Shown here: piece after piece, positions 34,949 to 64,000 of the stretch | How the letters are laid out: the number at the start of each line of letters is the position of its first letter | Position numbering within the stretch: the first letter of the stretch is position 1 | DNA from: Trileptium ribeirensis | Taxonomy: Eukaryota; Nematoda; Enoplea; Enoplida; Thoracostomopsidae | Length of the DNA stretch: 64,000 nt | Direction of reading: 5' to 3' | NCBI GenBank assembly: GCA_030248225.1 | Contig: JASANE010001555.1 | Location: 1 to 64,000 of the forward strand | Translations under genes and position numbers: made by a program | The notes under the pieces: generated by a model | What the model was told of the DNA's origin: nothing | What the model saw: only the letters and a program-made list of their open reading frames with translations | Databases searched by the model: none

Positions 34949-34951
34949 TAA

Positions 34952-35459: not shown

Positions 35460-35462
35460 TAA

Positions 35463-36802: not shown

Positions 36803-37787
36803 AACTTGATAGAGAATGTTTAAGAGTTGCTTTCTCCAATAAGCTACAAACTGTGGTACTAGTACTTCTTTTAAATATATTTTATTTACCTAGTAAAAAC
36901 TAGCAATACTATGTTAGAGCTAGGGGTAGATACACTGTTTTATGTGAGGATTGTTTGTCTGTCCTCAAAACACAATCTCATACAGCAAAATGAGTCATTA
37001 AAACAAATCTACATTGATCCTACACAATATTAAATACTGAATATATGGTTGTAAAGGACCTGGTGAATGCTGTGAAGTTACGGCGCATAGAGAGATCTAG
37101 GAATAATTGGCTCCCGGGACTTCGCCATAATTTGGAACGTCTCTTTGAGCTAGACTAGCTGATATATGGTTTTCTCTAGCTCGATTTTGTCAGTGTTGTT
37201 TTCTGTATTTGCCGTTATTTCCTTGTGTATAATTCTGCAAATATAACGCGTGGAGAAATTTTGAATCTATTGGCACTTTTGACTTACAAAAGAGAAATTT
37301 CTGTATTTTTTGTGAAAATTTCGTAGCCGCTCGATAAATTTTACGCTCTATTCAGCGATATATGCTTGGCAGCAGCAGTAATTCGAAGGTAAACAGGTTC
37401 TATTCTGGTAGTTACGTTTCTCCATTAAAGCCCGAGTACTACAAGTGATGTATTTTATTTTACATATCACAGGTTGTTTTGTTTCCGAATTATATGACAA
37501 ATTGCAATCTTTGTTTGTGACTTTTTGCGTATTCCAAACATAAAAAACAGTTTTTCGTTTTGTCGCGAAATGTGTAAAGAACAATATCGAGTTTAAAATA
37601 CATTAATTGTAGTGTCGTTTCAAACGTAGTGAGTTTATCTGATGTTTCTACTAAAAGATACTTTCGGCACATGAACGTAATTGCAGCTGATGGCTACACA
37701 CCATTAGAACAACAGCTTTGAAATAAATTATCCTCTTCAAGGCGAAATCGAGATATGGAACAATTTGTTTTTCTGTAATAATACTTA
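36803..37787. other. Non-coding flank of the giant element
   Basis: I see no supportable gene. The five bases before the LTR are ACTTA (37783-37787); the matching target duplication would lie beyond the window. Confidence 0.5.
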
Positions 37788-39453: not shown

Positions 39454-40209
39454 TCTACCCCCCTTGTGTTTGGTATCGTTCGGCCCCGTTCTTCGTCCTG
39501 GGACCGAATTTCGCCCCAGCCCCTCGAAATTCCCTCGGGAACCCCCTGACCCGACTCCCTTCCCGTGCCCTTTCTTTTCCGTTTTTCCTTTTCTTTTCCA
39601 CTCTCTCTAACCGACTTCTTTGGTCGGTTGTCGTTGCTGCTGTTGTCGTGGATATGGTGTGTGTGTTTGTTGTTCTTGTGGTTGCTGTGTGGTTGTGCTG
39701 ATGTTGTTGTTGTTGTGGTTCTGCGTGTTTCTGGTGTGGACTTGAGCGACCTTTCTGTCGCTCAGGTCGCCTGTGTGTCTCACGTGTAGTGTGTGTATGT
39801 GTTCATGAGTATTGTATGTATGTATTTGTGTATGTGTATATATATAGATATATATATATGTATGGACGCTATAGGCGAGGACGATACAAAAAAACAGGAC
39901 ACACGGGGACAGGACATACAAAATTCTCTTAAATTTATAAGTTTTACGGACGGACTGGACACACAGGACTAGGAAGGACGGGGGGTAGGTTTAGGGCCCT
40001 CCCGTGGGTCCTGGGAGTTCCTGAACGGGACCCCCGATAGGTCCAAAGATACATAGGAATGGGCTGCGCCCATGACCGCGAAATCAGCTCATTCCCATCT
40101 TAGGTTCCCCCCTTCGGGACGCCTAAAGACGTCCTGTCGGGACATTTGAAATTTAGCTAGGAATGCTAAGAATGCTAGGAATGTTTGGCTTTATCTTGTA
40201 AGCCAACAT

Positions 40210-40236
40210 ATAAACGTGCAATGTTTGCACGTTTAT
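40210..40236 (+). repeat. Perfect hairpin in LTR/leader
   Basis: ATAAACGTGC and GCACGTTTAT form a 10-bp perfect stem around a 7-nt loop. It could act in RNA folding or polyadenylation; its function is unknown. Confidence 0.6.
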
Positions 40237-42426: not shown

Positions 42427-42486
42427 CTCAACTGCACAATTTCGATAGTGCAGTTGAGACACTGTACAATTTCGACGTGTACAGTG
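42427..42486 (+). promoter_or_regulatory. Twin stem-loops in the leader
   Basis: Stem 1 pairs CTCAACTGCAC (42427-42437) with GTGCAGTTGAG (42448-42458), 11 bp perfect. Stem 2 pairs CACTGTACA (42460-42468) with TGTACAGTG (42478-42486), 9 bp perfect. One base separates them, and both loops contain ATTTCGA, which holds the self-complementary TCGA. Adjacent hairpins with palindromic loops in a retroviral leader recall dimerisation and packaging signals (inference by analogy). Confidence 0.6.
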
Positions 42487-45400
42487 AAATAAGGCCATAG
42501 GATAAGATACAGAGAGTGAGCACAAAAGACGAGAACAACAACAAAAGAAACAAAGGAAACAAACAAAAGTGAGACAGAGCAGAAAAAGGGGAAAAGAAAG
42601 AAACCCCCAGAGAAGCGCCAACCCAACGGGACGCCGACACGTCTGCCCCCTAATTCGACCCTAAACGCACCCTTGAGTGCAACCCTGGCCAAGTTCGTCG
42701 AGCAGGCGCGCTCATCCGCTTAAAACGGCTAAGACAGCGACGGCGATCGCCTGGCAGATCGTTGAACATGGCGATCGTCGGGGCGTGCTCCTGGTAGGAC
42801 CGTTGAAAAGTGACTAAGGGCGACCCCATTAACGTGATCAAAACGGCGTCCTCGATACTTATTACGTAGTTTAACTATTCCGCCACCATCAAAATTCACC
42901 CCCGCCGTTAGAAGCCAATCATAAATGAACTTTGAGGACTCGGGACAACTGAGCTTCCGCTTGAAGTGCTGGAGGTGCTGAGACTAAAACAATTAGCAAT
43001 TTCCACATGACCCGTCACGTGGGCGGAACGTTGTGGGATGCTCGATAAGGATGTTAGGTATTTTGTAGGACAAGGGATACTGACGAACCGAGTTTCCACA
43101 TCTGACGACCGAGTAGACGCATCGCTTATCGTAACCTGATTACTATTAACATTCGCTCGTTTGCACTATAAGTGACCATTTGTTTTGGACTGTGTAACGA
43201 TTTGTATAACAGTTGATTTTGACAATGCAACCATGTTTTATCTTGCCGCGAGACCTGTGCTTCTTCGTACCCCGTGTCCTGCCTTTTTGACGAAAGAAAC
43301 GAATCCTGCCTTTCTTTGCGTATAACGCCGCGCGTTATTAAGAGCGAACTTCGAAGCACGCCAGAACACATAACCCGAGCTATAGCGGACTTAGTTGAAC
43401 ACCTCGGGAACAGATTTCGGTCCGGTACTCCCGGGAACGACTTCGCTCGCGCGCACCGCCCCGCTCCCCCTTGTCGCATTGGACAAGAGAGGGAACGAAT
43501 GGTTCGACGGGTCTTAGTTACTGTTTTAGCTTGTATGCTCTATTACCTTGCCGGATGCTCGTTATTAATAACACTGTATATAGCTTTGAATAAAATCTTG
43601 AAAATCACTCCTGGCGTGTCCCGTGTTGTTTATCCCAGGCGTAATAAGTGCGTCCGAACGGACGGGCCGACCCTGCGTGCCACGGCTTGACGAGAGGAAC
43701 ATCCCAAGCCCTGACACGAGCGGTCCGCCGCCAATGTTGATATAGTAGTGTACCGAATTACAGCGAGAGTGGTCCTCAAATCACTTATCAAACTTACTGG
43801 TTTAATAGTCCACTCTTACGAAGGCCAAAATTTATTGGAAAACTTTATCACTAATGTTAACACAGTCAAAATTATCACGTTACGAAATAGATAGTCCGAC
43901 GTTAAACGTCTCAGGGCATGTCGGAACCCTGTGGGGGCCACATAGGCTACAACGGATAAAGTGTTCAGCCAAGGATAAACTCAGTGAAACTCAAAATTTA
44001 CCTAGCAAAACCAAAATTATCACGCGTTTTCACTTTAAATTAAGCTAGAGAAAACAACTTCAGTTAGATTCGCAGAGGGAATATCGGTTTGACATTATGG
44101 CCTGTGAGCAGGTTTCGGTGTCAACCTCCCTGGGGGCCTCAGCAATCATACCAAGATACTAGACACGTGCGCAACCAATCGGGCGGGGTCCGAACACACC
44201 CCGTGAAGCGCGCCTGCGGCCTGCTAAGCTCCGTAACTTCTTGGGTCTGACCAAGAAAAGTGGTTAAAATCCAAAGCTTAGGGTCCACCCTTGAGGTTAT
44301 GATAGCCGGGGTCGTACGGGCATGGTGTTAGGAAGTTGCGCCATGCAGCTGCGTCACCGTTATTACATCGTTGGGGGCCACGCCGTGAGAGGCGTCTATT
44401 GTTTTGCCCGACCCCCAGACGCCAGTTTAAAATTTTCGTCCACTCCCTACGTCGTGCGTATATTTTCTTGGATTTGTACCAGCGATGGCTACCAGCTACC
44501 TTCGAATTTGATCGGCACCTACCGCTTTTATGTAGACTCAGCTAGGACTCTCATGTGGACCTCTCGCAATGTGAGAAAATTGCTATGTGCTGGTGGTTTG
44601 GAGTCATTTAATGTACCCTGATGAATTCTTGTACATATGCTTGCCATACAATTGCATCTATTATATTACTTCGTGCCCTAGTTTGTTTTAAACTTGGAAC
44701 ATTTAACGGCCAAACCTCCGAATCGTACTTTCACACCCTGCTCTTATGGAGGTGGTGTTTGAACCGACCAATATGCCGGTAGTGACGGGCACTGTTTTCA
44801 GGATTGTGTATTAACGAATCGTTTCTGGCACTATTTAGTAACTTAATTAACTATCATCGCTACGTATAATATTCGGAATTTTGCCTTAATTGTCGCCACT
44901 AATTGAGTAACGAATTCTTGCTTGACGCGGCCACCTAATCACTAAATTCGCGTTGGAACGTATCTGCCGGAGTGACAGTAGCCTCGGAACCTTTATCGTT
45001 CGGTCTGGTATTACCTGTACGACGGGATTCACGACACTGTTTCTTGGACCGACTTTTGGCTGCTCTGTTATTGCTGCGTACCATCAATTGCGCTCAACGT
45101 GCCTCACCTTTGTCACTATCATCGCGTATCGTCTGTGTTGGTGACGTTCGCCTATTTAGTACTACGCATTTCGGTTCGGACTTTCGCCATCGCCAACGGA
45201 CGCTAGGGTGTCGACGCAATCGAATTGCTTCAAGACGTTTCGCTTGGACGACGTTGTTGCCGGGACATTGCTTGAACATAACGAAACTTTCACGACGGAC
45301 ATTGTAATTGTTGTTTGTTTATTTTGTAATTTCATAGTGCTTGGATTGTTTAATTTCAATTACTTATTTCGCTAGTACTTATTTTGTGTAATATCAGTCG

Positions 45401-45769
45401 AACCTGCTAATAACCCTTGGCGTGTGTGAATACATTTTAATTGCGGTAAACTTTTGTTTTCTTAACAATTGACCAGGTGCAAGTAATCATTATTGGTAAG
45501 GTTCTGCCGACCGTTGGGTTTCGCCAGTAACGAGAGTGTGTTTGGGATATCTTAACGCGTGGTGAGTTTATCAGCCTCCACCCACCTTGGAATATTGTTC
45601 TTCGGACATTTCGATACAACTGAAATCTTTTTCGGAGTTTGTTAAACTTGCTTAAAATATAGCTGATTCGGGAGATTATTGCCGCATCCATTGCTAGGTG
45701 ACGTTTAAACATCCCTTGACTTCACACACAAAATTTTTACAAGCCTGTTCGGTGACTACCGTCCTACTA

Positions 45770-48700
45770 ATGGATTCGCACGCTGATCCGGAGTTGGAAA
45801 CCCACGACTTTCTTGGCTGGACTGACGGACATATGGAGGACGACTTACGTGCCAGGCCCCGACGTGCCGCTGGCACCGGTGAGCGACCGCTCACTCCCCC
45901 GCCCCGACCCCCTGGACAATCGCGTCGGGGAGAATCATCTGAGTCACCTGGTCTGGACTCAAATACTGCTAACGCTATCTTGCACCACCTGACTACCCAA
46001 CCGGCTGGTCCTCCTATGATCCCACTAAGGGACATGCCGACCTTTGATGGGAAACCGGGAGGCCAGGACTTCGAGGACTGGGTTCGGATGTATAATCGTC
46101 TCGCTAACGCCAATGGTTGGGACGATCATCGAAAATTGATTTGCGTACCAGCTCTCTTGCGTGGACCGGCAAGGGAGGCCTTTGAGGGCCTTCCACCGGG
46201 TAAACGTCAAAGTTTCCTAGGACTAGTTGCCAACTTACGTTTTTTATTTTCGTCATCCCGCCGCCCATAGAAATCATTACCAGGATTGTGTACCCGACAA
46301 CAAGGAGCTAATGAACCCGTGACGATGTACGGTTTAGAATTGCAGAAGTTATGTGATCGCGCTTTTCCCGACATGGAAGATGGGCAACGGGACACCATGC
46401 TTCGCATGTTTTTCCAAAGAGGCTTGCGACCTGAGGTTCGTAGGCAGGTCCTTAACCAGATACATGAGTGCGAGACATTTCGGGATACCGTGGGAGTTGC
46501 TAAGCGATACGAGGACGCTAGCGCTGCGTGCCCTGAACCAGACGCACCCGTCGCTAGTAAGCCTCGGGCTAAAACTGTAAATTCTCTACTTGAGGAAGGA
46601 GGTGAAGGCCTGATCACACAACTTCAAAACATGATGGAGGAGCACCGCAAGGCGAACAACAGTAACAGCGATACAATAAGTCGGTTGCTGGATGTAATTG
46701 ATAAAAGGGTCGAGAACACGCGCCAGCTTAACGCTCTCGCGCCGCCGTTTGTGCCTGGCTCACCCGCTGCGCCGCCGTGCTTGCCAATACCGCATATTAC
46801 CTGCTATCGCTGCGGAGAACCAGGACACGTTATGCGCGAATGCCCGTATAATGTGCGCTATCCGCCTGCCGCTGTGAATGGTGCGCCGCGCAATGTCGAT
46901 CCAGCCCCCGCCTATGCATCCGGAGCTGCGCGTCGAGAGCCAGGGCAGCAAGGATTAAGAAATGGCGTGGGCGCCTACCCAAGAAACGATAACTATAATG
47001 CGGGCCGAGGAGGCCCACCGCCACAGTTTCGGCGAGCCGAAAACGGAAATGGATATCGAAATAATCCCGGGTGGAACAATCCACCCAACGCTGGAATGCG
47101 GCCTAGTGGCCCAAATCAAGCGGGACCGCCATACGTCCGACCACCGCCGGGATTTGCCAATAATACTCGCGGAAATGATAACTATAACAACCGGCCGGCT
47201 CCGGCCTATGGGTATCAACGCGCCCAGAGCGAACGACCCCAACCTAATAGACGCATGGGGCCCCAGCAGCAGTCTGGGCGATTTTATTCACGGGACGACA
47301 GCAACCGGAACAGTGGTGCTGTACCGCGTCGGCGATGCCAGCTAAATTTCAGCGCATCTCAGGGTAATGGAAATCGAGAACCAAGCCCAGCCACTACCCA
47401 TCGCCTAGAGGTACTCAGCCGTGAACTCGGTATGATTCAAGGCAAACTAGGGCATAGTGAACCGACTGGACGACTGAACGCTATCGCGACTACTGACGAA
47501 CCATTGTACGATGACGACGGATACTTGATAAACAGACACGATGACTTGGACGATTCTGAGATGATGAAAGGACTTATTGAGAGACACCTGAACGTGATCA
47601 CGACCACTTCGTGGGCTGATGCCGCGCGTCTTCCCCGGAGCCGTGATCTGGTTCAGGGTGTGGACAGCCCTGGACTTATGGAATTGGGCCTTAGTGATAC
47701 TGAGGACGAGCAATGCTGCAACGAACACACAAACGCTGTATATAGTAAAGAAAACACAAAATACCAAAAAGAGGGATTTCGGGGCGAGGGATTGTCTATG
47801 TTGTGTGTGGATGCACCCAGCGCGGGTGTTGATCCACGTGTATATATATCCGCGAGCGAATTAAATGGCGAACAGCGAGGCGAGCGAAGGGTCGACCAAT
47901 CAGACTATCCGGCCATGCTAGGGCTCGGACTGAACGAACGAACTCTGACTGCAATGGAAGATAATAATGGTAGTATGGAAATTCGCGAAGAAATGGAAGA
48001 TGGTTGTGTTCAAAATTATAGGTTGAGTGATGTTAAAGGAAGTGTTGATTTTATAACCGGTACTCCCCAGGGAATCACCTCAAGGGGGAATTCCGGGACC
48101 CCCAGCTCTTTGGAGATGACTGCAGAGATTGTGAGTGAAGATGATGTTGTTGTATTTGATGAGCCATTATTATTATTTTCCTCCTCTGTGGCTGGCCATC
48201 CGTGTGTTGAGAGTGTTGATGTTGATGATTCCGGCAGGGAAGCCGATGATGTTGATATGGCTCAGGAAGAATCGGATTTATTCGGGTTGCCGTGTGAGGC
48301 ACCCATGGAGCTTTTAGAGGTCGGCGGACGACCAGGAACGATGGAGGCTGCGGCGTACGATGTTAGGGCCCTCTCGGAGTCGCCCAGTCCTAGTTCCGTT
48401 CTAAATTATAGGTCGTATGATGTAGTATGTGGGTCGGACCGCCGCGCGGGTCGTCCCTTGTGTGATGATGAGAATTGTGTGTCGTATGAGTGTATTGACT
48501 TGCCTAAGTTAGGACGCGCTTATAGCCTTAGTGAATTATTGGAAGATGATAATGGAAGTGATGTTGATGTAATTGAATGCTACTTCGAACCGGCGAAGTA
48601 TGCTACTGATGGACTTGAGGTGACTTTCCCGACCTCATTGGCAAGGGGTTCCACGGTCATTGGGTCCTTCCTTGATGCTGACCGGGGCCGCCCTTGTCAC

Positions 48701-50269
48701 CCGTACCCAAGCCGAGGTAGCGACGGGTTCGCGGCCGATTGCGCCGATGAAGCGGGTATGATCGTTGGGGCTGAAAGTATTGCCCGGGGTCTGCCCAGGT
48801 ACGGGGATGTAGATGGCAGGGTGGCGAATAAAGACTGTCCATCGCATTGTGAGGCTTCCGTCGCGCCCACCGTCGTTGAAGCGCGCAACGACGTGACTTG
48901 CAATGAGCTAAGTTTTTTCAATAAATCTTGCGATGAAGTCAGCGTGAAGGACAGCGCTGAGTGTGTTGAATTTGTTGGATCGGATAAATCGAAGGAGTCG
49001 AGTGAACTCCTTTTTGAGCGAAGCGGATCCGCCGCGAGCGATGCGAACAATTTTAGCGAAGCGAAAATATGTAACCTAAGACGGGGTACCCCGCAGGAAC
49101 GCGATTTTGGTGGAAATGAATCAGAAAATGAGCTTGGATACGGCGTGATCGTCGCGCCCGATGAGTCTAATGGTAGGCCTGATGAAGGCAGTGATGACGA
49201 GATGGATGAGGAACGTATGCTGGAGGACGAAGAATTTTGGGCCAATTGGGTGGATCCGAATGCCGACTGGTACCGACGCGAACCCAGCCCTGACGCACGA
49301 GAGTGGCATAGTGAAGGGGTGTGGGAAGTGCGTCGCGAAAACAACAACGAACTTCCGCGTGCACCATCGGATGATGGCATTGATTTAAGCTTGCGAGCCA
49401 GTCAACTGTCTATCCATTCTGAAGAAGGAGATGGTGCTGTCGGAGGAAGCGATCTAAGCGAAGGCAGCGATAGTGGCAGTGTCGCTATGGGAAGTGTGAG
49501 TGGGCCAAGTTCGGATCCACAGGTCGGGAACGTTCGTGGAGACCCTATCGAAGGGACGCCTTGTATGCGCCTGGGTAATTTAGGTAGCTCCACCGATACG
49601 TTAGCCGACATCTCTAGCGATATATTGGGACCCGTCGAAGAGGCGCCTAGTATGCCCTCGGGTGACCCAAAGGAAGCAAGTACGACCACTGAGGAGTCCG
49701 TTGAAGGGAGACCATGTATGTCCCCGGGTAATTCGGAGGAATCTGTGAGCGTGATTAGCGAGGACTCGGACGTGTGTATGGGACAAGAGAACTTGCTTAA
49801 CTTTATACGAGAAGCTAATGACGAACGTATACATCAACTGGACGAACAATTACTGGACATGTCTGGACTTTGTCTTCCCAATAATATGCCGATCGAACTT
49901 GGACGAGTTAGAGCAATAACGGACGAGGAACGTACTCGAATCCTCGGGACTGACACATTGTTCACTATGTCTACGGACCATGCCGAGACCGTAGCTTATC
50001 AATTCCCTCGCATCGAATTGACTGAGGATGCGGGTAACGAGTCAGCTGAGGGACTCATACCAATTAACTTTAGGGCTAGCGAGATCAATGTTGAGTACGG
50101 ACAACCTTTGGCATTGCAACCGCAGGCTCTCTTTTATCGGAGAGTAATAATTGTAATGGAACAGCTGAACAATTTAAGCCGACTTTTTGAGCTTCGATTT
50201 GAGGTTAGCACACGACCCGCCTTACAGCGAGATGCCGCTATGCTAAGCAGTATATTAGGCATGGCCTAA
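45770..50269 (+). pseudogene. Gag with one zinc knuckle and a long acidic tail (giant element)
   Basis: The first ATG is 45770. The frame runs to TAA 50267, broken only by TAG at 46268-46270, giving 1,500 codons. Residues ~80-260 look like a capsid (DMPTFDGKPGGQDFEDWV, later FRDTVGVAKRYEDA). A CCHC knuckle CYRCGEPGHVMREC is at 46802-46843. A Gly/Asn/Arg/Pro-rich basic stretch follows (to about 47340), suited to RNA binding, then ~950 residues rich in Asp, Glu and Ser. Near the end are repeats of the type EGxPCMxxGN (about 49550-49790) and a more ordered C-terminal 150 residues. Such an acidic tail is not typical of Gag; its role is unknown. The next ORF follows after 15 bases in the same frame. 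Confidence 0.88.
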
Positions 50270-50284: not shown

Positions 50285-51196
50285 ATGACCGGGATGTATC
50301 TTGGTCCCGTGACACTTTCTTCGTTGGAGTCTTTCATCGATCTGGTGGGTCCATGCGTGAATGGCCACACGCTCCAGCAGGTCATTGAGAGAGAATTCGA
50401 GGTAGAGTTTAGTAGGGATCCGGTGTGTCGCCAGTGCCAAGAGTGCCACATAAGAGATTCCCGGGACCCAGGCTCACGCTGCTACTTTTTCGGTCAACGA
50501 GGAAGATGGACTTACGACGGTACGCTGACCACCACGTGCGCGTCCATCCTCCCGGATGGCTACATTGCACCTCATTGGCCTTTCTATGTCGGAATTCAAT
50601 CAGCCAGAATGCAGAAAACTTTCCGCGAGGCGAACCTCGAGTTGCACGACCTCTTGTGCGAGGCGCCTTATTTGATCGAATTCATTTATCGGAACCAAGA
50701 CACACGCGGTGTTCCGATCAACTCCTTTGTTGACCAAGCTTTAGGTAATATGGAATTTGACGACGAAACTCACCGACTTGCCCGACTGGTACTGCTAAGC
50801 GCACGCATGAGACTTTTGCGGCGCCCCGACATTGCTGCACTGCTTGAGACAGAGGGAAACACATCTGCCGGACTAAAGATAGGCAGGGACCGCTTAATTT
50901 CGGAACTATGCTTGTTCCCGGACGATGACACCAACTGTTCCATCCCGAATTTGGACGAACAATTAACCACAGCATTAGCCGCTTACCTCGACTCATCTGA
51001 CGAGGAGTCGGAGGATAACTCCGATAGCGACTCCGCCCAGCAAGAAAGCATAACTGAGTCGAGTGACACGGAAACGAGCGACGAGGAAATTAAAAGCGAC
51101 ATTACGGAACACATCGCAAACATGAGGGAACCCAATCGAAACGAGGTACGATCCCCTTCACCGAGCCTTAGTAATGGCATCGGCCATCCTTCAGGT
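50285..51196 (+). pseudogene. Unknown Cys-containing domain upstream of Env (giant element)
   Basis: I do not recognise it. The ORF opens at ATG 50285, 15 bases after the Gag stop and in the same frame, and runs into the Env-like region without interruption. It has a folded-looking first ~210 residues with a cysteine cluster CRQCQEC near residue 48 and helix-rich sequence (e.g. RLARLVLLSARMRLL). An acidic Ser/Asp/Glu linker follows to about 51180. It may be a cytosolic N-terminal extension of Env, or a separate protein if Env starts at the internal ATG 51197. It is intact itself; the ORF is broken later. Confidence 0.6.
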
Positions 51197-51200
51197 ATGT
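51192..51200 (+). promoter_or_regulatory. Consensus 5' splice site at the Env start
   Basis: CAG/GTATGT is a near-perfect metazoan donor and overlaps the ATG of the Env signal peptide (51197-51199). If used, splicing would remove the Env start and could supply a way to make downstream Pol without Env. Use is not shown. Confidence 0.4.
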
Positions 51201-53100
51201 GGAGGGTCTGTACAATCCTATTATTACTTTGGCTCTCAGCGCTCAGTTCTACGCGCGCAACGCTTTCCCCATTTAGCGATTCAATCTCGCGCTTAGGTGC
51301 TTTTGTCAATCGACAAGTAGGAGTGGTCATCGAGCCACAGGGCTTGGTGGTCACCTCCGACCAAACAACGCATTTGCCAGTGGTATTGCAGTTATCACTT
51401 CGCGATTGGGAACGTAAGTCCGATCCCTATGTGAGTAAATTCTGTCCACCTTATGAAGCGAACGGATCATGCCGCGCGGACGGCTGCCGGAAGGTTAACT
51501 GCACCGAATATCCACAGCTCCATGAGACTCTAAGCGCTTTGGAACGTGAACTCGATGACGCTTATCATGGCGTGCTGGACACCAATTACTATTCGTTGCT
51601 TGTGCATTCTTTTTGTGTCGCGAACGAGCAATTGTGTGATCTCACGCATAAAAGAGAAAAGCGCTTTGCTAGCTTGATTGCCGCCGCTGCAGGTGCCGTC
51701 TCAGGTTTCTTGGGCTTGGGAATGGCTTTTTCTAATGGAGTGCACATCAATAATGTTCGCCAACAGGTAACTGTCCTCGAAAAATTCATGCGTGAGACTA
51801 ACGATGTCTCCTTTCGGAATACTAAAGCCATTAGGCAACTAACCCGAGCAAACGAGGACATCTACGCATTCCTACACCATAGCATGCAAGAGGTAGTCTC
51901 CATGATCGAACAGGTTAGGTGTGCCGATCAGAAAGAGATCGCGCATGTGCACCACCAGCTAATAGATCACATCCTTCGAGCCAACATGCGCTCGTCGGTA
52001 CAAGCTATAATGGAATCCATGCTGAACGGCGAATTATCTCACGCCGTTATTGATGTCGTCATGTTACGACGGTTATTTTCCATGGATCCACGCATTTCCA
52101 AGACTATCGTCATGCGCGAGCCTAGCCTCGCCTATTAGTTTGGTCGCGTCATGCCTGTGAGCGTGGACCTGACAGCGTTTCGCTTTGGGTTCATTTTGCA
52201 ATTACCATTGCCGATGCGCAATGACGTACGACCATATTTTCGGATATATAACACTGGTTGGAATGCACCCGCCACGCTGACGCAGCTGAGATTGCCGCTC
52301 CCTCAATATGCTGCCCGCTTGGGGAAATTCGCTTCGAATCACTAAATCTGGGAGCATGCAAGCAAAGACCAGGAATCGCTTTTTGTGAACCGCACGCGTT
52401 GATAACCGATCATAGTACAAATTGCTTAGAATGGATTATTGCAGGCGAACATGTGCCCGAGACCATTAAACACACATGCAGCAACCGTTCCCTGATAGGT
52501 CCACTTGCCAACGACACGTCTGTACACACGACTATACAGGGAGTATTAATTCGGACTAATGAACCTGAGGTCATTTTGACAAATCGGAGACAACTAGCTC
52601 ACGTTACGTTGGGTAAGTCAATAAAAGTACCGCCTAATGGAGTGTTATGGTTTCCACACGGAAACTACACTCAGTTGGTCATTGGGTCAATAGTGCTCAC
52701 TAGCATGCTGAAGCCGGAAAAGATCACAATAAAATTCGGACCGAATATTACTATTGACCGGCTATCCGGTATTAAATTAAGACCTCTGACTTGGGACTCA
52801 CTCGACAACGCCAAGGCTATCAATTGGCGGGTTGCGCAGATAGCTAAGGACAAAGTCCGTAGTGTGGTTAATCTCCCCGCTGTGGAATACACGGGATTCT
52901 TGCCCTACTTCCTCATCACCGTCGTTGTAGGATTGATCAGTTTGATCTATTTCATGAGTAAATGCAAGGTCTCACCTAAGTACGGATATTATATTCCCCG
53001 ATGGTTCTCATGTCGTGGACGTCTAATTAGGACCGATAGTAAGCCTAAGAAAGCCATTCGATGGATCAGAGCAAAACACCGATTACCGAGTGCTCCACCT
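51197..53100 (+). pseudogene. Env-like class I fusion glycoprotein (giant element)
   Basis: It begins with a signal peptide (MWRVCTILLLLWLSALSS, 51197-51250). A Cys-containing surface part has N-glycosylation sequons (NGS, NCT), and then a furin-type site KREKR lies at 51650-51664. The Ala/Gly-rich hydrophobic segment right after it resembles a fusion peptide, followed by heptad-like helices. The C-terminal ectodomain has more cysteines and sequons (NRS, NDT, NYT, NIT), and a transmembrane anchor lies at 52894-52965, then a basic tail. This layout matches baculovirus F/errantivirus Env relatives; the exact family needs a profile search. Breaks: TAG at 52136-52138 and a frame change between about 52258 and 52345. 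It lies upstream of Pol, and its tail is in frame with the protease. Confidence 0.82.
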
Positions 53101-55558
53101 GCGGAAGATGACTTCCCTCATACAGACAGAACCTCGCCGACGGAGGTCATGGTTGGGCCCTCGGGGGCGCCGCGCGTGTCCGTTGCGTCCAGCCGTGCCC
53201 CATGTCGTTCGAACAGACTATTAACATCACGTAACTCATCCGAGGAAGAACTCGTATTCATCGAGGACGACGAACTATTTGTCGCTCCCTCTCGTGACTC
53301 ACGCCGTGTACCTCGTCAAGGTATGTTCACTAGACAACTAAACACCATGAACGCAGGTAATACGCCACTGCTCATTAACGCAACCATACTTGGCACCCCA
53401 GTTATGACCCTTGTAGACACTGGAGCCGACGTGTCAATCATGTCACAAGCCCTAGCTGCCCGTTTACGACTGGTTCCTCGCGACACGAACACTACCCGTA
53501 TAGTATCGGCTACGCAACAAGAGTTGACAATCAGCGGAGTAGTAAAAGCACCGATCACAATAGGATCGTTAAGTACACCGTGCGACTTTCAGGTAACAAC
53601 AGACACTCCGTACGAATGCATCTTAGGTACCGACTTTATGGCATTACTACCATATGTCGACATAAATTTTAAAGACCGCTGCCTGGATTTATCTAACGGA
53701 ACTGAAAACTGTTCGGCGCCGTTCGCCGACCAAGGGGATTACCGACCCCCAGTTATCAACGTGGTAACCAGAAAATACACTCAAGTACCACCGAACACCG
53801 AGCTGTTCATCAACGCCATCCTGGAAATCACCCAACCTCCGAGTGGTCAAGCTTTGTTCGTACCCGACCCCTTTATTAGGGACGTTGCCATCGCCCACTT
53901 TCTGGTACTTACTGGCCAACGCATGATCCCAATAGCACTGATGAATTTTGGGAACTTTCCCGTCGCCATACACGCCGGACAAACAATAGGACACATTGAG
54001 ATGCTTGACGACAACGAGGTCGAATTCTTATACGACAGTAACAAGCGTCTGTTACAACTTGACCTTCCAAGACGCACTAAGCAATGCAACAATATCGGAG
54101 TTACACGAGACAACGTTGTACAAATTATAAGTGAACAGAAGAAGACCATTGACACCGAGCGATCCATACAAGTCTTGAGTAAAATAGACTTTGGACAAAC
54201 GACCCTTAACCCTTTCGAGCTCAAACAATTGAAAACGACTATCTCCGAGAATGCAGACATATTTAGTGTACACCCGTTTGATCTAGGCAGATGTGGTGTA
54301 CACCAACACAGGATCGTTACTGGAGACGCAAGGCCTATCAAACAGGTACCTTACCGCTTAGCTCATTCATTACGAGAACCCTTGCGTGAAGAACTGAACA
54401 ACATAGTAGAAGCAGGTCTAATAACACCATCCGATTCACCCTAGGGTTCTCCCATCGTTTACGTCACCAAAAGTGACGGTACCTTACGGTTGTGCGTCGA
54501 CTTCCGTAAGCTCAACGTAGTTGCAGAACGTGACTTATACCCACTGCCCCGTATAGACGACATACTGGGATGTCTCAGAAACACCAAATTCATGTCCAGT
54601 TTAGATCTTAACAAAGGTTTCTGGCAATTAGAACTGGACCCGGAGACCAAGGAGAAAACCTCCTTCGCCACTGTCCACGGACAGTATGAATATAACGTTT
54701 TGCCATTCGGATTGAACTCTTCACCCGGCGCCTTTCAAAGGTGCATGTCAATCATACTAAAGGGCTTAGAATGGGAACGATGCCTTATCTACATAGACGA
54801 CATATTGGTCTTTTCGCCCACGTTTGAGCAACACCTAGCGGACCTAATTACTGTATTTGATAGGTTCCGTAAAGCAAATCTTAAACTAAAGCCCTCCAAA
54901 TGTCAGTTTGGACAGAAACAATTGAAATATCTTGGACACATTATCAGTTCAGAGCGAGTTAAACCCGACCCCGAGAAAACCGCTGCAATAGACAATTACA
55001 AACGACCGGAAACTCTCAAACAATTGCAGAGTTTCTTAGGGCTTGTAGGATATTATCACAAATTCATACCACATTACTCTGAAATTTGCGAGCCGCTCAA
55101 CGCACTCCAACGGAAGGACAGTGAATTCAAATGGACACCGCAATGCGAGGAAGCATTCGGAAAACTACGTAAGGCGTTGGTACAAGAACCATTACTCATA
55201 TACCCGGACTTTTCTAAACCTTTCATACTCCAAACGGACGCTTCTGGATATGCCCTGGGGCTGTGCTTTCGCAAAAGACCGACAAGGGGACATTGCCTAT
55301 CGCCTACGCGAGCAAATCATTTGTAGACTATCAACGCCGATATCCTGCCATAGAGACTGAAGCTCTTGCCATGCGGTGGGCTGCCTTACACTTCCGACAC
55401 TACCTACTCGGACACGAATTCCATGTTGAGACTGACCATAAGCCACTTAAGGCACTGTTCGAGAGACCACTCCGAAATTCGCGATTAGCTCAATGGCGTA
55501 ACGAATTACTGATGGAATTCGGTGGTTTCAACATCGAATATAGACCAGGTAAGGCTAA
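53101..55558 (+). pseudogene. Protease, RT and RNase H (giant element)
   Basis: Protease: LVDTGADVSIM with catalytic DTGA at 53416-53427. RT: CVDFRKLN near 54490, DLNKGFWQLELD near 54605, FGLNSSPGAFQRC, catalytic YIDD at 54790-54801, then FLGLVGYYHKFIPHY. RNase H: LQTDASGYALG near 55230, ETEALAMRWA and TDHKPLKALF. The frame is shared with the Env tail upstream, without its own start codon. Breaks: TAG at 54442-54444, at the usual SPWxSP tryptophan position, and a one-base frame change near 55255. The MITE at 55559 follows directly, at the end of RNase H. Confidence 0.93.
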
Positions 55559-56069
55559 TGCGGCGTTCACGTTATAATGTCCCCAACGTTTGGAACCCAT
55601 GTACCCCACACAGTGTCAGACACACTGTTGACAACAGGGTGTCTTAGACACCACCATGTTTTTAATAAATTTTTTCAACGGTAGCTAGTTACGCGTATTA
55701 CCACTTGCCGACAGTGTCAGGCACACCGTGTCTTCTGGCAGTTTTATTGACACTGTTCGGAATTATTTGAGCAATGTTCATATGGGCTAGATACAAATAT
55801 CGAGAATTTAGGAAAAACTCCACAGGACAGTTGACTAATAAATCGCATTCGCTACAGACGGTGTCCGTTATAGTTAATTCGCGCCAAATTGGTAGCTAAG
55901 GGTGTGTACGACACTGTCTAGAAAAAAATTTAGTAGCTAAGGGTGTGTCGTACACCCTCGGCATTTTATTTACAGTATGGGTGTCACCCTGACTGTCTAT
56001 ACGGTAGGGTCGCGACTACAGGGGGTCAAAAGTTCCAAACAGCGGGGACATTATAACGTGAACGCCGCA
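55559..56069. mobile_element. MITE family B, copy 3, inside the giant element
   Basis: This 511-bp element has inverted ends TGCGGCGTTCACGTTATAATG and the reciprocal, and TAA at 55556-55558 and 56070-56072. MITE plus one TAA is 514 bp, and the coding frame shifts from phase 3 to phase 1 across it, exactly as expected for a simple insertion into an open frame. It must therefore have moved after the giant element arrived or was assembled. Confidence 0.96.
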
Positions 56070-56072
56070 TAA

Positions 56073-58120
56073 TGCCAACGCTGACGGACTTTCACGTGAT
56101 CCCCGACATGACGTGGAATTTTCCTACTCTTCGGACGAGGCGGAGCAGGACGAACAGGACCATCCTCGAATGGTTGCTGTAGCTGTTAAAGGACAGGATC
56201 GTGGTAAAGGCAAAGCTCCGGCTAAGCCGCCCCGCCGATTTCCCACCGAAGAAGTTTGGAAACGACTTACTCGACAACTAATGGGACTCCCCCCGGACGC
56301 TCCCGTCTCCCTACCACCTGAGTATGTTCGGGAACGTTTCTACCGTATGTTTGGAGGACCTGGTTATGATCCCCTACCGGATCCAACACGTTTCATCTTC
56401 TGCGGAGACATAGACGACCCCTGGCCCGAAGGAGTTGAGATCCCCGGAAGACGGACGACTGCCCCAAGGCCGCCAGAACCCACTGATGAACCGACCCACG
56501 GACCCTCTTCAGCACCCGAACCACCCGCCAGACCCCCGCAACCCCAGGAGCCCCCGACCGCTCCGACACCGCCTGCTCCTGGTGCGGCGAGTAAGAGCTC
56601 GACCCGTGCTATGGCTGGTACACCTGAACCCGCTACACCACGGACGCTACCGACAACCGCTAGACAGAGATATGGAGGTTTACCGGAAGTAGAGGAATTT
56701 GACACATTAATTAAGGTTGCTTACGCATGCGGACCACGAATACAATTACAACGCCCTGAACAGGTCTATGACACAGGAGAACATATATACTTACCACACT
56801 TTCAACAATACGAAGGGAGGAACCTCCTCAATTACCTACTATACAGCCAACGCCGAGATAAACAATTTGGTCCTATTTGGTGGTATTTACATACACGACA
56901 GTCGCCCGCCGATGAAAAGGCAGCGACCGCCCTCAAACTAGAAGCCCACCATTACCGACTTTGCCCTGACACTGCCATTCTATACTTACACCCCATCATG
57001 CCAAACGACCATAGACCAAAATTGTGCGTACCCAGATTGCTCATCCGACAAATACTTAAGCATGAACACGACACATTATTTGGTGGACATCCAGGTAGAG
57101 ATCGACTACTGAGCAAACTTAAACAATTTTATTATTGGGAGACCATGGGTAAGGACGTAGACGAATACGTTAAGCGATGTGTACTCTGCCAGCGATCACG
57201 CAATCTACCTCAAAACGTTCGAGCCGCGCTCGGAGAGAACCCGTTGGCTAGTGCGCCCATGCATCGCATGTTTGTTGACATATTGGACACTCGGGTGCTA
57301 TCCCGAAACGGAAATAGGTACGTAATAGCCTTTATCGATCAATTCACGAAACTAGTAATTGCCGCTGCCTTACCGGATCAAACCGCTAAGAGTGTAGCCA
57401 AGGTCTTCGTCGAAGACGTGGTGTGCCGCTACGGCGCACCCGAGGAACTAGTCTCAGACCGAGGAGGATGTTTCGTCTCCGAGGTAATGGAAGCCTTGTG
57501 CGCTAGACTGCATACATTTAAGCGCGAAACATTAAGCTACAATCCGAAGGCAAATGGAGAAATCGAACGCTTCAACCGTACTCTGTTATTCCTCCTAAGA
57601 GTAGCATTACCTGAAAAAGACCATACTACATAGGACGAAGTCCTGCCGTATTGCATAATGTCCTACAATTCAGCCGTACACGCTTCCACGCACTACACAC
57701 CATTCATGCTTATGCACGGATTCCAACCCCGAGTACCGGGCGGAATCGAAACACAAACTGATTAGGGACGCTACGCCGGAGCAGAAGCATATCGTGCTAA
57801 TGTACAACGATGGTTAGCTACCATTAGGGATCGAGCCTATCGGTCCATGCAATCTGCTCGGGAATACAGAAAACGTTACTACAATCGTAAGATCAAGGTC
57901 CCGGACTACCGTGTTAATGACCATGTATGGGTCTACCGATACTGCACAACACCAGGACTATCGTGCAATCTAGAACGCCGATGGTGTGGACCATACCAGA
58001 TTACTAAAACAATGCCGCCTTGCATTTGTGTTAAGCTCCCCGGACAACCTAATGCTTCCGACCACGTCGTTCACATAAATCGCACCAAACCCTGCTACCG
58101 CCCACTAAGCAGCTTCCCCG
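56073..58120 (+). pseudogene. Proline-rich linker and integrase (giant element)
   Basis: After the MITE about 200 residues of charged and Pro-rich linker (to about 56660) precede integrase, an unusual spacer between RNase H and integrase. Integrase: HHCC finger with HEHDTLFGGHPG near 57060 and CVLC near 57178; catalytic D in VDILDT, D in SDRGG (about 57460), E in NGEIERFNR (about 57560). The C-terminal GPY/F module is RRWCGPYQITK near 57976. Breaks: TAG at 57631-57633, where the family has a conserved Trp (T-W-D-E-x-LPY), and TAG at 57763-57765. Otherwise the frame is continuous. Confidence 0.92.
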
Positions 58121-60372
58121 ACATAGCTGATTTGCTCAAAGCCGTCCCTCCCGCATATATTGAGGCTGCACTACAGGAACCAGGAGAAACTATCCTCGCT
58201 GACAAATATTTCGCCAGAGAACTACAGGCTGCAGACCCAGAAGCAGTAGACCGGTTGCGCCAGGAGATTGATGGTGCATCCGACGTCGCCAGTGTAGAAA
58301 TTGGAGAGCCTAACTTAGAATACACGCAAGCACAGGCAGACATACACCGCGCCGCAGTAGAACAGCTGACCATTCAGGCTCAGGCACCAGCCGGAGCCTC
58401 GCAACAAAACCGACTTCCCCTTTGTGACCCCGACAGAACTCCGGACACCGAATGGCCCGCTATATCACAGGAACTCGCTACCCAGGACCCCGCCAAGCTA
58501 CCTTACGCGCTTGATAAACCACCTGGTACTTTCTCGCCTGAGTATGGACAACACACCGCCCCAGTAACTCTACGAGAGCAGGAACGAGCCGTTCGGACTG
58601 GTGAGCCTACCAGACCTCTAACGGTGAAACGCTCGGACAACGGTCGTGCACTACGACCATTCAACGTTAATGACTTAGGTCTCGTGGAATTACTCGCTTC
58701 ACAGGACCCGGACGAACACTCGCCCCATACTCCAGAAGGAGCTACATCTCCAACTGCAGCAGTTGAACATGCTGTTCAAACCTCGCCTCTTACGCCTGCC
58801 CAACGTCGAGCCGCAATCGCCACTCAAACATCCCGCAGCCCCCAGACACAACACTTAGTGACTGAATCAGACAAGCCAGTGACACCATACCACACCTATT
58901 TTGAGCCTACAGCGTCTTACGAACAACCATATTCCATACCTCGTCAGGCATATTCCGCCCCACCCACACCACTTCCACACACTCCCCTAATGCCACTGGG
59001 ATTCGAAGCCACAATAGAGGACTACGTCCCGGACGAATGGCTCACACCATATTACACCCCTCCGAGACCACAACCCGCACAATCCGTTCCAGTAACCAGC
59101 CAACCTCCACTGGAACACGCGCCAACACCAAAACCTAAGCCTAAACCGCGACGAAAGCAAGTCCAACAACCTACACCGACTAATGAACCAGTATCATCCG
59201 TAAGTTCGGAGACCACGTCATCTGAAACAATTGATTCCCCGACACCACCTCACCGGTGGAAAATCCCTCCCCTATTGTCTCCCCTAGCGGAGCGTGGAAC
59301 TAAGGGCCCACAGGTACCATCCTTTGGTCGATGGACCATCCAGAGACAAAATGAGCTAGCACAGTGGGAATGGGAAATACAGGAAATAAGGAGGAAACGA
59401 GAGGAAGCCGCCCGTGCCCGAGGAGAAATACAGGATGCAACTGAACTAATGGAGTACATAAGGGGATCTCCCATCCAATACATCCCCTCGTAAGACCAAA
59501 TATCTGCCGACGGGATTGTAGAAGAATTTATTGGAAGTTTAGCTCGACAACGAGAAGCAAGTAAACAACGTCGACCTTCCGAGTCTTCGGAAGGTGGTCG
59601 ACCGAAACGATTACGACCACGGACTGTAGACAAGGACGATGAGACAATATCAACCATTGGCGAATCAACCAAAGGCTCCTCTACCGGCAGGAAGGGAAGA
59701 GCGCCGCCGCGCAGCTCTCCCTCCACCCTCAAGGGAGTTCTAACTCGACCATCACGCGCCAAACCACGTAGACAAACCCCAGCTAAAGCCCGATCACAAG
59801 TTAGTTGCGAAGACGAAGAGGATGAGATGCCTCTAAGTCAACTTTTACCGGGATCTCGCCGGAGGCCCCACTTTGAACTCGACCCTCCAACGGAGGAGAG
59901 CGAGGGATCTCCTGAAATGGGACCCTCTGCATACCAAGTTAAAGAGAGCGAGGAACCCACTCAACCTACACGCCGACAGCCACATAGACAAGCCAGAGAC
60001 AGTTGTCGTTGGTATGAAGAATACTTACCACACGGTGAAGAAGCTCGAGTCATAATACCACGCCTCGACCCCCGAAGTGTGAGGCCCCAAGCTACAGCCC
60101 CAGCTCGACGGAATATACCTCTCGCTCCACCGACTCGGCATCGTGATCCCGTTATGCCAATGGATTACCCATCTGGTAGTGCTCGTGCACGGCACGACAT
60201 GTTTGAACCTTTTAGGGACATCTTTGACGAACGGGACATCGAGGACATGTTATCCGCACATCCGGACTTGGAACCCGACGAGGACAGTGGACAAAGACAA
60301 TTACGACCCGAAGATGTCGGACTGGAGGTGGTCCGACATCCTAGACAACCGCCTCGCGAGAGACGGTTGTAA
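58121..60372 (+). pseudogene. Long disordered C-terminal extension of Pol (giant element)
   Basis: In the integrase frame, about 750 codons of Pro/Thr/Gln/Glu-rich sequence follow the GPY/F module. A TAA lies at 59491-59493, but the frame stays open beyond it to a TAA at 60370. A basic KPKPKPRRK stretch lies near 59130. Near 59330-59450 is a helix with WTIQRQNELAQWEWEIQEI. The part after 59494 is rich in Arg and acidic residues. I recognise no domain. Either 59491 is the true end and the rest a second ORF (ATG 59827), or the stop is a lesion. Confidence 0.6.
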
Positions 60373-60480
60373 CGCTTGAATCACTCAATAAACACTCCCA
60401 GAAAGCTCGAGCTCCCGCTACTAATATCCCTCAAGAACCGCCACTATTGCAGGAATCGCCACTTCAAAGGACTCAACGAT

Positions 60481-61641
60481 ATGAAACAACTTCCGCAACC
60501 TCGTGTGCCGTACTACACCATCAACTATGGTGCTGCAATCGAAACGTTCCTCTCCAAAGGCACACACTGGCCGGAACTCTCAAACATGGCTCCGTTAGGC
60601 CAAACAATAACTCAATATCCCATCGAATACGCCTCAACGGAGCAAGGATATCAGCTCCTCGTCACGTATTTGTTCGACGAGGAGCAAGCAAAACAAGACA
60701 TTTCGGACTTGAAAATGGGAGCTCGAGACATCAAAGCCATCTCCCGCCGGAACAAACAAAAGTTCCTGGACCCGGAAACAACTGAGCGCCTTCGCCCAGT
60801 ACTCCCTCACCTTATGCGGACGGTGCTACTAGAGAAATTCAAGATTCCCCGGTTCAGGGACGCCCTACTAGCCACCGGATTTGCCCAACTGCTCGAGGCA
60901 AATAGGTCCGAGTCCTTCTGGGGAATTGGCCTAGGACCAGAGGATCTCACCTTTGGCAAACGACCGCGACTATGCCATAACGTTATGGGCCGTCTATTGG
61001 AGGAAGTCCGAACCTTCCTCCGCCATAACGTCGCCACTTGGCCAACCGTGCTCATTCTGGGCGATTCGTTAGCGGCGCCCTTGGTCAATATGGCCGCATC
61101 AACAGGGTGGTTCGCCCTAGCCTGGCCGCGAGCCACCATGCAATTCTTAGTCCGACTGGCGACGTGCATCGCAACGCCACAGACTAAAACCGTCATGATA
61201 CTTGGTGGATATAAAGCGGCCTTACGATCGAAGCCGCACGAAGGTCGTTTGCTGGACACGCCCAGCAAAGTGATGCGTCGAGTACGCCGTTATATCTGTT
61301 CATTCGACTATCTGCTCAGTGACGGAGCCCGAGCGATCATTGCCCCGCCACCTCCACATTGGGACATCGGACAGGACAATACTGTCGAATTGCACGACGA
61401 ATTTACCCAACTATTCCAGGACATAAAATGGCAGTTCCCCGACCGAATGCGGAAATCGTCGATGCTAGACTACCCACCAGAGTTAACCGAATCGGGCGCT
61501 TGGGACATCATCACCGACGGCAGCGAAAGTGTGGAACCCAAAGTAGCCGAGCCCTATATCGAATATCTCCGTAAGTGGGTCCAACGGAACCTAGCACCCA
61601 ATAGTGGGGATTGGGACAATAAGGAGGAAATGCCGATATGA
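60481..61641 (+). CDS. NADAR (YbiA-like) domain protein with SGNH-like tail (giant element)
   Basis: 386 codons from ATG 60481, intact to TGA 61639, the last gene before the 3' LTR. The first ~180 residues carry the NADAR signature in order: a W-x-x-LSN motif (WPELSNMAP), Y-x-STEQGYQ with the key Glu, a KF helix, LLATGFAQLLEA, SFWGIGLG, and N-x-MGRLLEEVR. NADAR enzymes act on ADP-ribose-type N-glycosidic bonds; bacterial members reverse guanosine ADP-ribosylation or act on riboflavin intermediates. The rest has VLILGDSLAAP and VMILGGYKA, resembling the GDS and following blocks of SGNH hydrolases, but no clear catalytic Asp-x-x-His, so that call is tentative. The frame is open upstream to the TAA at 60370. 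No signal peptide is seen, so it is likely cytosolic or virion-associated. Confidence 0.85.
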   Translation: MKQLPQPRVPYYTINYGAAIETFLSKGTHWPELSNMAPLGQTITQYPIEYASTEQGYQLLVTYLFDEEQAKQDISDLKMGARDIKAISRRNKQKFLDPETTERLRPVLPHLMRTVLLEKFKIPRFRDALLATGFAQLLEANRSESFWGIGLGPEDLTFGKRPRLCHNVMGRLLEEVRTFLRHNVATWPTVLILGDSLAAPLVNMAASTGWFALAWPRATMQFLVRLATCIATPQTKTVMILGGYKAALRSKPHEGRLLDTPSKVMRRVRRYICSFDYLLSDGARAIIAPPPPHWDIGQDNTVELHDEFTQLFQDIKWQFPDRMRKSSMLDYPPELTESGAWDIITDGSESVEPKVAEPYIEYLRKWVQRNLAPNSGDWDNKEEMPI

Positions 61642-62375: not shown

Positions 62376-64000
62376 TGTAACAGGCCCGTTCCGGCCCGTT
62401 ACGCGTCTTTTGCACAATTTTGGTGGTAAAATTGCTTAGACGAGTCTCAAATCGCCTTAGACAAGTTTTCATGTGCCGCCTGGTGCCATGGATGTCAATG
62501 ATTGTGCTGCTTATCGTTGTGTCGTACCTGTATTTTGCCATTTGTCACATTTTATCGCTGTATCGTACTTGTGTTTTGCCACTTATCATATTCTTGTCGT
62601 TGCATAATTTATTGTGTCTGGATAAGCCCATGGTAACTCGGCGGAAACTAGCCTCGGTTGTTTGATCAGGCTTGGAAAGAATAGGAAAGAGCCTCTAACT
62701 GGTGCTGAGATACGAGATCTGAACGGAACCCGACCACTTCTCCCGATTTCCCTAAGGGAAATTCAAAATTTCTACCGTCCGGGAATAGGAGGCCTCTGAC
62801 GATTTAAGGGCTCGGAGAGTAATCAAAATCCGGACTATCAATTTTACCTGGTTCGAGCGAACTATAGCCTAATGGTCGCGAAAATAAGCTGAAATCAATG
62901 AGTTACGGTAGTTTCCGATTATTCGGAAATAACGGACCTCGGGCCTGTTTATCGGCCCGTAACCGTCCAACGGTTCAGATTTACCGAAAATGTCCCGAGT
63001 ACTTTTTGGTAGAGAATTCTCATTGCTCTCGAACGAGCCCAAGACATCACAAATGACTGGAGGATTTCCTGAGATATTCTAGGGACAAACGGGTAAACAT
63101 TCAATTAACAGCCAATACTTACGCTAGGTTCGGCTGGAGACCATGGTTCCGAGTGGACATAACCTAGGCTTATATCGAAATATAGCTATGCATATGTATG
63201 TGTACTGCTTGAGCTTCGTGTCTCGGTGTGACTATTTTTCCGCCCCTACCGTATCAAAACCTTTCTTTGATAGCATCCTTTGAAGCCCCAAATTAGCCTG
63301 ACCACCACGCTAACAACTGGCTTTCCTGGTTACCATCGGATCAGTGATGGAAAGTACGCGTATTTCCAAGTAGACTACCCATCTAGGCATCTGACGAGGC
63401 CAGGCCGGTCTCGACCTGACCAGTCATCTCGCTGCTATATCACTCATTTCCCTGTTTTATACCGCACCACGGGAATTCAACATAAAATTCCGTCAGTTTG
63501 TACCAACTCCGTCTTTGACCCCAGACCCTAAATGTGCTCATGCGACCCCTCATTTTACTCGCCTGCTCCTGGCAAGTACAACGATGTCTGGCGGGTCTGC
63601 GTCTGACTTCGGGTTAGCCCGCTATGACCGTCAAAGTGTTCCCAATTTGGCATACCGACTGAAAGTGGGTACAAACCAACCGAAAATTTATTCCCAACTC
63701 AAATGTAGGCAAAACGCCCGTCATCGCATTCGCCACGCCGAGACATCTTCAATGATGCCCGGTGGATCCCCGTCAGTCGCCCCGTTAACCCAGGACGGCC
63801 AAAAAAGCGCCCCCACCATTACTGACACTCTCTTTATCAGTCGTGATTTTAGTGCTCCTCTACCCGTTGCCTTTCCATGGCGAGTTCAACGATGCCCGGC
63901 GGGCGTCGCTCAGCCCAACCGTTAGAGCGGGAAAGCCCGCTGAAACCCTGTATGCTAATACATGTTGGAACCCAAAACCGGGTTCCGACCCGCCACTGCG
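62376..64000 (+). repeat. 3' LTR, truncated by the window end
   Basis: It matches 37788-39453 from its first base, with ~3 % substitutions, a 36-bp deletion near 63869 and a missing C run. Its right end and the target duplication are outside the window. Confidence 0.92.
62471..62665 (+). CDS. Small hydrophobic ORF inside the 3' LTR
   Basis: This is the copy of 37883-38077: 64 codons, two hydrophobic stretches, still open. The two amino-acid differences (L to V and F to V) keep the hydrophobic character. Coding is unproven. Confidence 0.2.
   Translation: MCRLVPWMSMIVLLIVVSYLYFAICHILSLYRTCVLPLIIFLSLHNLLCLDKPMVTRRKLASVV

Follow-up and report, generated by a model that had tools for sequence, protein, structure and literature searches.

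The Gypsy elements of the brown alga Ectocarpus, which are long terminal repeat (LTR) retroelements, include a lineage whose families retain a NADAR domain of the YbiA family (PMC12477816). A likewise NADAR-bearing element is present in the nematode Trileptium ribeirensis on a stretch of 64,000 nucleotides (assembly GCA_030248225.1, contig JASANE010001555.1, positions 1 to 64,000 of the forward strand), which is named the window in the following, and the gene at positions 60481 to 61641 of this window is the subject of this report. The nematode element differs from the algal one in that the NADAR is encoded by a separate gene after pol, that this gene contains a second domain, and that the element has a size of 31 kb and an env-like region. 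NADARs in Gypsy elements are already known from the brown alga, and it is the present architecture that is new. Among the papers listed by a literature search for NADARs in retroelements, PMC12477816 was the sole relevant work.

The planarian Burro elements are also longer than 30 kb, with long LTRs, an env-like region between gag and protease, and a giant polyprotein, and the extra domains listed in the available part of the source include MATH, BIR, ankyrin, and BCL2-like domains but no NADAR (PMC6431247). A likeness of the nematode element to Burro in the env-like region would be one of order and of a frame shared with the protease; this region was identified by eye and has no profile match. 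LTR elements of bdelloid rotifers likewise contain an enzyme-like open reading frame (ORF), ORF3, after pol, with GDSL esterases among the encoded proteins, and the related GDSL ORFs of Athena-L are devoid of catalytic residues (PMC5408684). The available part of that source mentions no NADAR for these elements, and a kinship of the present second domain to SGNH proteins is no more than a suggestion. Among animal retroelements, a Tx1 LINE of the oyster Crassostrea gigas is reported to have a NADAR-like domain in the protein encoded by ORF1; it differs from the nematode case as a non-LTR element with the NADAR in the ORF1 position (PMC12477816).

Phages, large DNA viruses, and positive-strand RNA viruses carry NADARs, which were proposed to act against ADP-ribose-based responses, and macrodomains of animal RNA viruses were proposed to strip host ADP-ribose marks (PMC9503650). 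The available part of this source ties no NADAR to a retroelement and mentions retroviruses for the 2H domain only, and its text does not name retrotransposons, Gypsy, or Metaviridae anywhere. In nematodes, SNA-3 contains eukaryotic NADARs tied to RNA processing, one of them without the conserved key residues; SNA-3 differs from the protein described here by being an immobile host protein with three NADAR domains (PMC9303266).

The interpretation favored here, which is given a probability of about 0.5, is that the gene at 60481 is an accessory NADAR gene, expressed separately, and that its product would be an enzyme with an altered substrate protecting the element. A Burro-like 31-kb Ty3/Gypsy-type element with long LTRs encodes, after pol, a protein with a NADAR and an alpha/beta-looking second domain. 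This accessory protein would be translated from an mRNA that is spliced, or that starts downstream in some other way, similar to env of other elements.

Identification of the NADAR domain

The gene is located in frame 1, which is open from just past the stop codon at 60370-60372 to position 61641 and has its first ATG at 60481. Residues 67-216 of the 421-amino-acid reading that begins at a TTG matched the Pfam profile PF08719 with an E value of 9.9e-15 and 55.6 bits at a cut-off of 35.1 bits, and the top sequence match of the ORF in the Protein Data Bank (PDB) was 8bau, a NADAR of Phytophthora nicotianae (E = 7.6e-5). An AlphaFold2 model of the 386-amino-acid product, built with 21 relatives, had a mean predicted local distance difference test score (pLDDT) of 57.9. 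In the region of model residues 31-180, 14 of 15 ten-residue blocks displayed mean pLDDT values between 71 and 93 and one block a value of 65; residues 203-355 remained below 50. When this model was used in a Foldseek search, the only two matches with E values of 0.001 or lower were 8bau (5.2e-7) and YbiA of Escherichia coli, 2b3w (2.8e-6), with template modeling scores by target length of 0.63 and 0.69, respectively. According to the model, the NADAR half has a YbiA-type fold. The YbiA subfamily of NADAR is marked by Glu at the E125 position (PMC11543638), and Glu rather than Asp or His was found at this position in 29 of the 30 copies introduced below, with a stop codon in the remaining one.

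An earlier note on this DNA, made from the sequence alone, had assigned the ORF to the NADAR family and had named the motifs STEQGYQ, SFWGIGLG, and N-x-MGRLL, all of which were found in the ORF. The two checks it had proposed for this assignment, a PF08719 profile search and a structural comparison with YbiA, both yielded matches, the profile above its cut-off and the model with YbiA and the oomycete NADAR in the PDB. A search of 5.8 billion proteins with the full ORF, or with the NADAR part alone, gave no match, and neither did a search of viral contigs with the ORF, the integrase, and the reverse transcriptase. A profile derived from four NADARs matched 29 proteins. With regard to a pairing of the DarT-NADAR type, a Pfam scan of nine ORFs and five pieces of the element revealed no ADP-ribosyltransferase domain.

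Copies of the element and selection on the gene

The genome searched for copies was that of the window itself, with 687 Mb in 20229 contigs. The search with the ORF yielded 2715 candidates, of which 99 were scored, including that of the window; these were near full length, with E values of 2.8e-236 or lower and at least 82% identity. The 30 best of the 99 copies, again with that of the window, were used as loci for the copy counts, and since these were the top-scoring ones, intactness and conservation are overestimated, and the pairs formed between them are not independent. The end of pol was found upstream of the gene in all 30 loci, and the 3' LTR was reached in 29 of the 29 loci with sufficient flanking sequence.

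The converse search started from the stretch at 52258-54441, which covers the end of the env-like region and the protease, and gave 61 scored places, including that of the window, of 3573 candidates in the same genome. In 30 of these 61 env-protease copies, the NADAR ORF was scored on the same strand 4.9 to 5.9 kb downstream. Among the remaining 31, 20 were probed; the position was beyond the contig end in 3, and the ORF or a part of it was present in 10 of the 17 downstream stretches obtained, two of which were shortened by the contig end. No NADAR match was found in the other 7 of the 17 stretches, one of them short. A more diverged NADAR family among the downstream stretches was considered and rejected for loci L053 and L062, in which the alignments attributed the low identity to frame damage. 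The survey of related elements proposed in the earlier note thus showed that the ORF recurs in the copies, and an absence from all other copies, by which that note would have abandoned its view, was not observed.

These counts bear on the question of whether a host or foreign gene was lately captured by one copy or is a host gene flanking the element. The window copy itself might give this impression: its pol is broken by in-frame stop codons, a shift of frame, and an insertion of 0.5 kb, and the NADAR frame beside it is free of stops, just as the earlier note had described an intact ORF in a damaged surrounding. The gene is nevertheless located inside a pair of LTRs with a target-site duplication, CTTA, which also bears out the retrovirus-like carrier proposed before; it is found at the same place in dozens of copies, and the mean pairwise number of synonymous substitutions per site (dS) was 0.40 and 0.67 in the two halves of the gene. 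The LTR pair, the duplication, and the copies rule out a captured or flanking gene, the probability of which is close to nil.

The ratio of nonsynonymous to synonymous substitutions (dN/dS) was calculated by the Nei-Gojobori method, pooled over pairs of the 30 copies, with the 95% range obtained by codon bootstrap. This calculation, also proposed in the earlier note, resulted in 0.071 (0.047 to 0.095) for the NADAR half (codons 36-217), 0.121 (0.088 to 0.155) for the second half (codons 218-412), and 0.168 (0.127 to 0.219) for the upstream pol tail in 30 copies, of which 7 were partly covered and 2 had one stop codon each. Codons 36-412 were free of an internal stop in 28 of the 30 copies. The protein is preserved by selection. 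As a separate observation, the synonymous difference pS was 0.31 and 0.43 in the halves of the NADAR gene versus 0.19 in the adjoining pol tail (window positions 59494-61638 and copies); the higher value in the gene may come from recombination between subfamilies.

The start of the gene can be judged from the same copies. M36, the ATG at 60481, was invariant in 30 of 30 copies, and dN/dS for the 15 codons ahead of it was 0.98 (0.43 to 2.79), which together support this ATG as the start. Alternatively, the pol polyprotein could extend into the NADAR at its C terminus by readthrough of the pol stop codon. In favor of this, the gene shares the frame of the pol stop in 21 of the 30 copies, that of the window included, where the distance between stop and ATG is a multiple of 3. 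A pol stop codon, TAA or TAG, was however present in all 30 loci, always upstream of the gene, the frame relation was lost in the other 9, and the codons before the ATG were not visibly constrained. A C-terminal end of pol is consequently rejected as the conserved arrangement, and readthrough is left with a very low probability. The gene is accessory and under selection, and its start is probably separate from that of pol.

How a separate mRNA might arise is suggested by the block ACTATTGCAG ahead of the NADAR ATG, which looks like a splice acceptor. Nine of its 10 columns were invariant, CTAAT was present shortly upstream in 26 of the 30 copies but not in that of the window, and no ATG was located between the block and M36 in any of the 30. 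One other block of 10 columns in the leader was as invariant as ACTATTGCAG, so that conservation alone does not prove splicing.

Active site and possible substrate

In the structure 8bau, E43 and E125 hold the distal ribose of ADP-ribose, and K50, R79, W89, R93, W133, and, mediated by water, D130 hold the phosphates; in the C7 NADAR of E. coli, the catalyzing residues are E88, K95, and D171 (PMC11543638). From its spacing to the Glu, K95 of C7 would correspond to K50 of 8bau. The same source contrasts E88 variants with D171 variants of the C7 enzyme, and for this reason, E43 is not claimed to be essential here. In the alignment to 8bau and YbiA, E43 and W133 were kept in all 30 copies, R79 in 29, E125 in all but the copy with the stop codon, and D130 in 29, with the window copy alone having an E.

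Several observations weigh against the favored interpretation. In addition to the choice of top-scoring loci and the seven downstream stretches without NADAR match mentioned above, K50 is replaced by V and W89 by L in all 30 copies, although alignments with 16 and with 21 NADAR relatives show a conservation of 90% or more in both columns, and R93 aligns with L in the window copy. The full set of residues holding ADP-ribose in 8bau (E43, K50, R79, W89, R93, E125, D130, and W133) is therefore not present. Replacement of the equivalent of the catalyzing K95 may mean that the domain is binding-only or dead.

The combination of kept E43, E125, and W133 with replaced K50 and W89 indicates that the NADAR domain has not simply decayed and is not a typical ADP-ribosyl hydrolase either. 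The latter would reverse ADP-ribosylation of guanosine, or another ADP-ribosylation, of the RNA or cDNA of the element, which corresponds to the view of the earlier note. The family match, the fold, and the three kept residues agree with such an activity, but the phosphate-holding Lys and Trp are replaced without exception; a bacterial-type action on ADP-ribosylated guanosine is thus unsupported as it was stated, and an ordinary hydrolase is unlikely. The function of the protein is less evident than the earlier note had supposed.

As another possibility, with a lower probability than the favored interpretation but a higher one than the ordinary hydrolase, the NADAR half may be non-catalytic and serve as a ligand- or RNA-binding module in the particle or a ribonucleoprotein, with the second domain performing other work. 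The loss of K50 and W89 is itself conserved, the constraint extends over the whole protein beyond the active site, and nematode SNA-3 is a precedent for NADAR domains in an RNA-processing protein, the first of which lacks key residues (PMC9303266). For a pure scaffold, however, conservation of E43, E125, D130, and W133 in 29 or 30 of the 30 copies would not be expected. We think that a shifted substrate is the likeliest solution, followed by a binding-only role and, in last position, standard activity.

With a shifted substrate, the NADAR half would still be an enzyme of the ribosyl N-glycosidase type, as the kept E43, E125, and W133 suggest, and its substrate would not be gripped by Lys and Trp at the phosphates, for instance a different ribosyl adduct or signal. 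Removal of this substrate would shield the nucleic acid or proteins of the element, or the cell, from a host response based on NAD or ADP-ribose. The protein may counter ADP-ribosylation by the host. If retroelements carry a selected enzyme of the NADAR or a related kind, control of mobile elements by ADP-ribose becomes directly testable. A selected NADAR with replaced ligand residues would also be a handle on the targets of eukaryotic NADARs, which were called unclear (PMC11125620).

Second half of the protein

The second half of the window protein had no Pfam match, ten copies gave two matches at noise level only (E = 0.1), and comparison with PDB sequences gave nothing better than E = 0.2. 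Near its start, the sequence ILGDSLA is found, the Ser of which was kept in 30 of 30 copies. A single-sequence model of this half, with a pLDDT of 42.6, displayed alternating strands and helices. Its fold matches were all weak, none with an E value of 0.001 or lower, and included various esterases and lipases, which we take to be SGNH hydrolases, among unrelated folds. A test of the second half for SGNH/GDSL features revealed no SGNH profile match and, by eye, no GxN block. As a lead from the model, the second half is perhaps SGNH-like and maybe inactive. The earlier note had mentioned neither this half of the protein nor the signs of a start separate from pol nor the NADARs of Polinton-like elements.

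Further NADARs in Polinton-like DNA elements

In the T. ribeirensis genome, 150 NADAR places of 2317 candidates were scored, with 124 to 141 bits, and several of them are located in DNA elements. Two contigs, L012 and L014, were read over 10 kb, and in both, the neighbors of the NADAR include an rve integrase and a TBP-like gene as well as an A32-type ATPase. Inspection by eye also revealed a PolB-like motif in L014 and capsid-like ORFs, the latter not recognized by Pfam where checked. Six more contigs from the top hits were represented by short loci (L004, L005, and L007 to L010), of which L005 and L008 were read. A NADAR beside an A32-type ATPase was found at loci L003, L005, L006, L008, L012, and L014, with L006 being part of the L014 contig. 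On the basis of these gene sets, the NADAR-bearing DNA elements are called Polinton-like here. The TBP-like proteins are encoded at L014:5895-6434 and L012:1260-1772 (PF00352, E = 1e-32 and 9e-20, respectively).

Three Polinton NADARs were aligned; all of them keep the Lys and the Trp, and in two of them, the Glu at E125 is missing and W133 is replaced by F. In a NADAR tree of 25 rows, which came with long-branch warnings, the four retroelement NADARs shared a branch with a length of about 3 changes per site and did not group with the three Polinton NADARs. A derivation of the retroelement NADAR from the Polinton NADARs of this genome is unsupported by the tree. No report of NADAR and Polinton together was found in a literature search under the name Polinton. 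It is a tentative and rather doubtful proposal that two kinds of selfish elements in this genome, giant env-bearing Ty3 and Polinton-like ones, which are both numerous and are unrelated to each other, would each have acquired a NADAR. If both indeed took up NADAR, this would point to a host defense that uses NAD or ADP-ribose chemistry to mark the nucleic acid or proteins of invaders, with the retroelement version being retuned to a new substrate and coupled to a second, enzyme-like domain.

Structure of the carrier element

The contig was also read past the window, up to position 70000, which revealed an element of 31.2 kb (Table 1) with the order gag, env-like region, aspartic protease, reverse transcriptase, RNase H, integrase, pol tail, and NADAR gene, the latter between pol and the 3' LTR. 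Traits of Ty3/Gypsy (Metaviridae) were the LTRs, their TG...CA ends, the short target duplication, and the order of protease, reverse transcriptase, RNase H, and integrase; judged by this structure and domain order, the element is of the Ty3/Gypsy type.

Table 1 Features of the NADAR-bearing element, with positions in the window unless indicated otherwise (K2P, Kimura two-parameter distance)
Feature	Position	Strand	Remarks
Target-site duplication CTTA	37784..37787 (left); contig 68974-68977 (right, outside window)		Read beside both LTR ends
5' LTR	37788..44367	+	6580 nt, TGTAAC...TTACA; 96.9% identical to right LTR, K2P 0.032
gag	45698..50269	+	Two open stretches, 45698-46270 and 46286-50269; zf-CCHC E 1.2e-6; PAM2-like motif
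env-like region	50285..53300	+	Basic cleavage-like site, then hydrophobic stretch, C-terminal membrane span; called by eye
Aspartic protease	53374..53640	+	PF13975 E 8.3e-13
Reverse transcriptase and RNase H	54490..55577	+	RVT_1 E 9.9e-32; RT_RNaseH E 2.8e-24; frame change near 55263-55326
Inserted repeat with inverted ends, breaking pol	55556..56072		Also at 34949-35462 (89.6%) and 13360-13862 (72.2%)
Integrase	56113..57633	+	Integrase_H2C2 E 4e-20; rve E 5.6e-12
Integrase C-terminal part and pol tail	57847..60372	+	Weak MLVIN_C match below cut-off; terminal stop in 30/30 copies
Splice-acceptor-like block ACTATTGCAG	60443..60452	+	Ahead of NADAR ATG; exact in 29/30 copies
Accessory gene	60481..61641	+	386 aa in window copy; 23/30 copies terminate 9 codons sooner
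NADAR domain	60574..61023	+	PF08719 E 9.9e-15; PDB sequence match; model
Second domain	61024..61638	+	GDS motif near start; no family match; perhaps SGNH-like
3' LTR	62376..64000, continuing to contig 68973	+	About 6.6 kb; starts TGTAAC, ends TTACA

The env-like region had no Pfam match, and its last part lies with the protease in a common open frame (52258-54444). Of the 61 env-protease copies, 10 are part of open frames with 4000 codons or more, and 7 of the 61 are part of open frames with 4700 codons or more, which makes one giant polyprotein the likely original state. A search in Rfam gave no match, and a tRNA search found none. A PAM2-like motif (LNALAPPFVPG) is located in gag at window positions 46718-46762, directly before the CCHC knuckle, with an E value of 0.018, which is below the cut-off; it suggests binding of a poly(A)-binding protein.

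Two more Gypsy-looking elements, as indicated by their ORFs, are located in the window at 21355-30564 and 4166-8702, with end repeats that are 98% and 94% identical, respectively. Overlapping self-matches at 19125-20033 revealed a tandem array, the unit of which is about 47 bases long.
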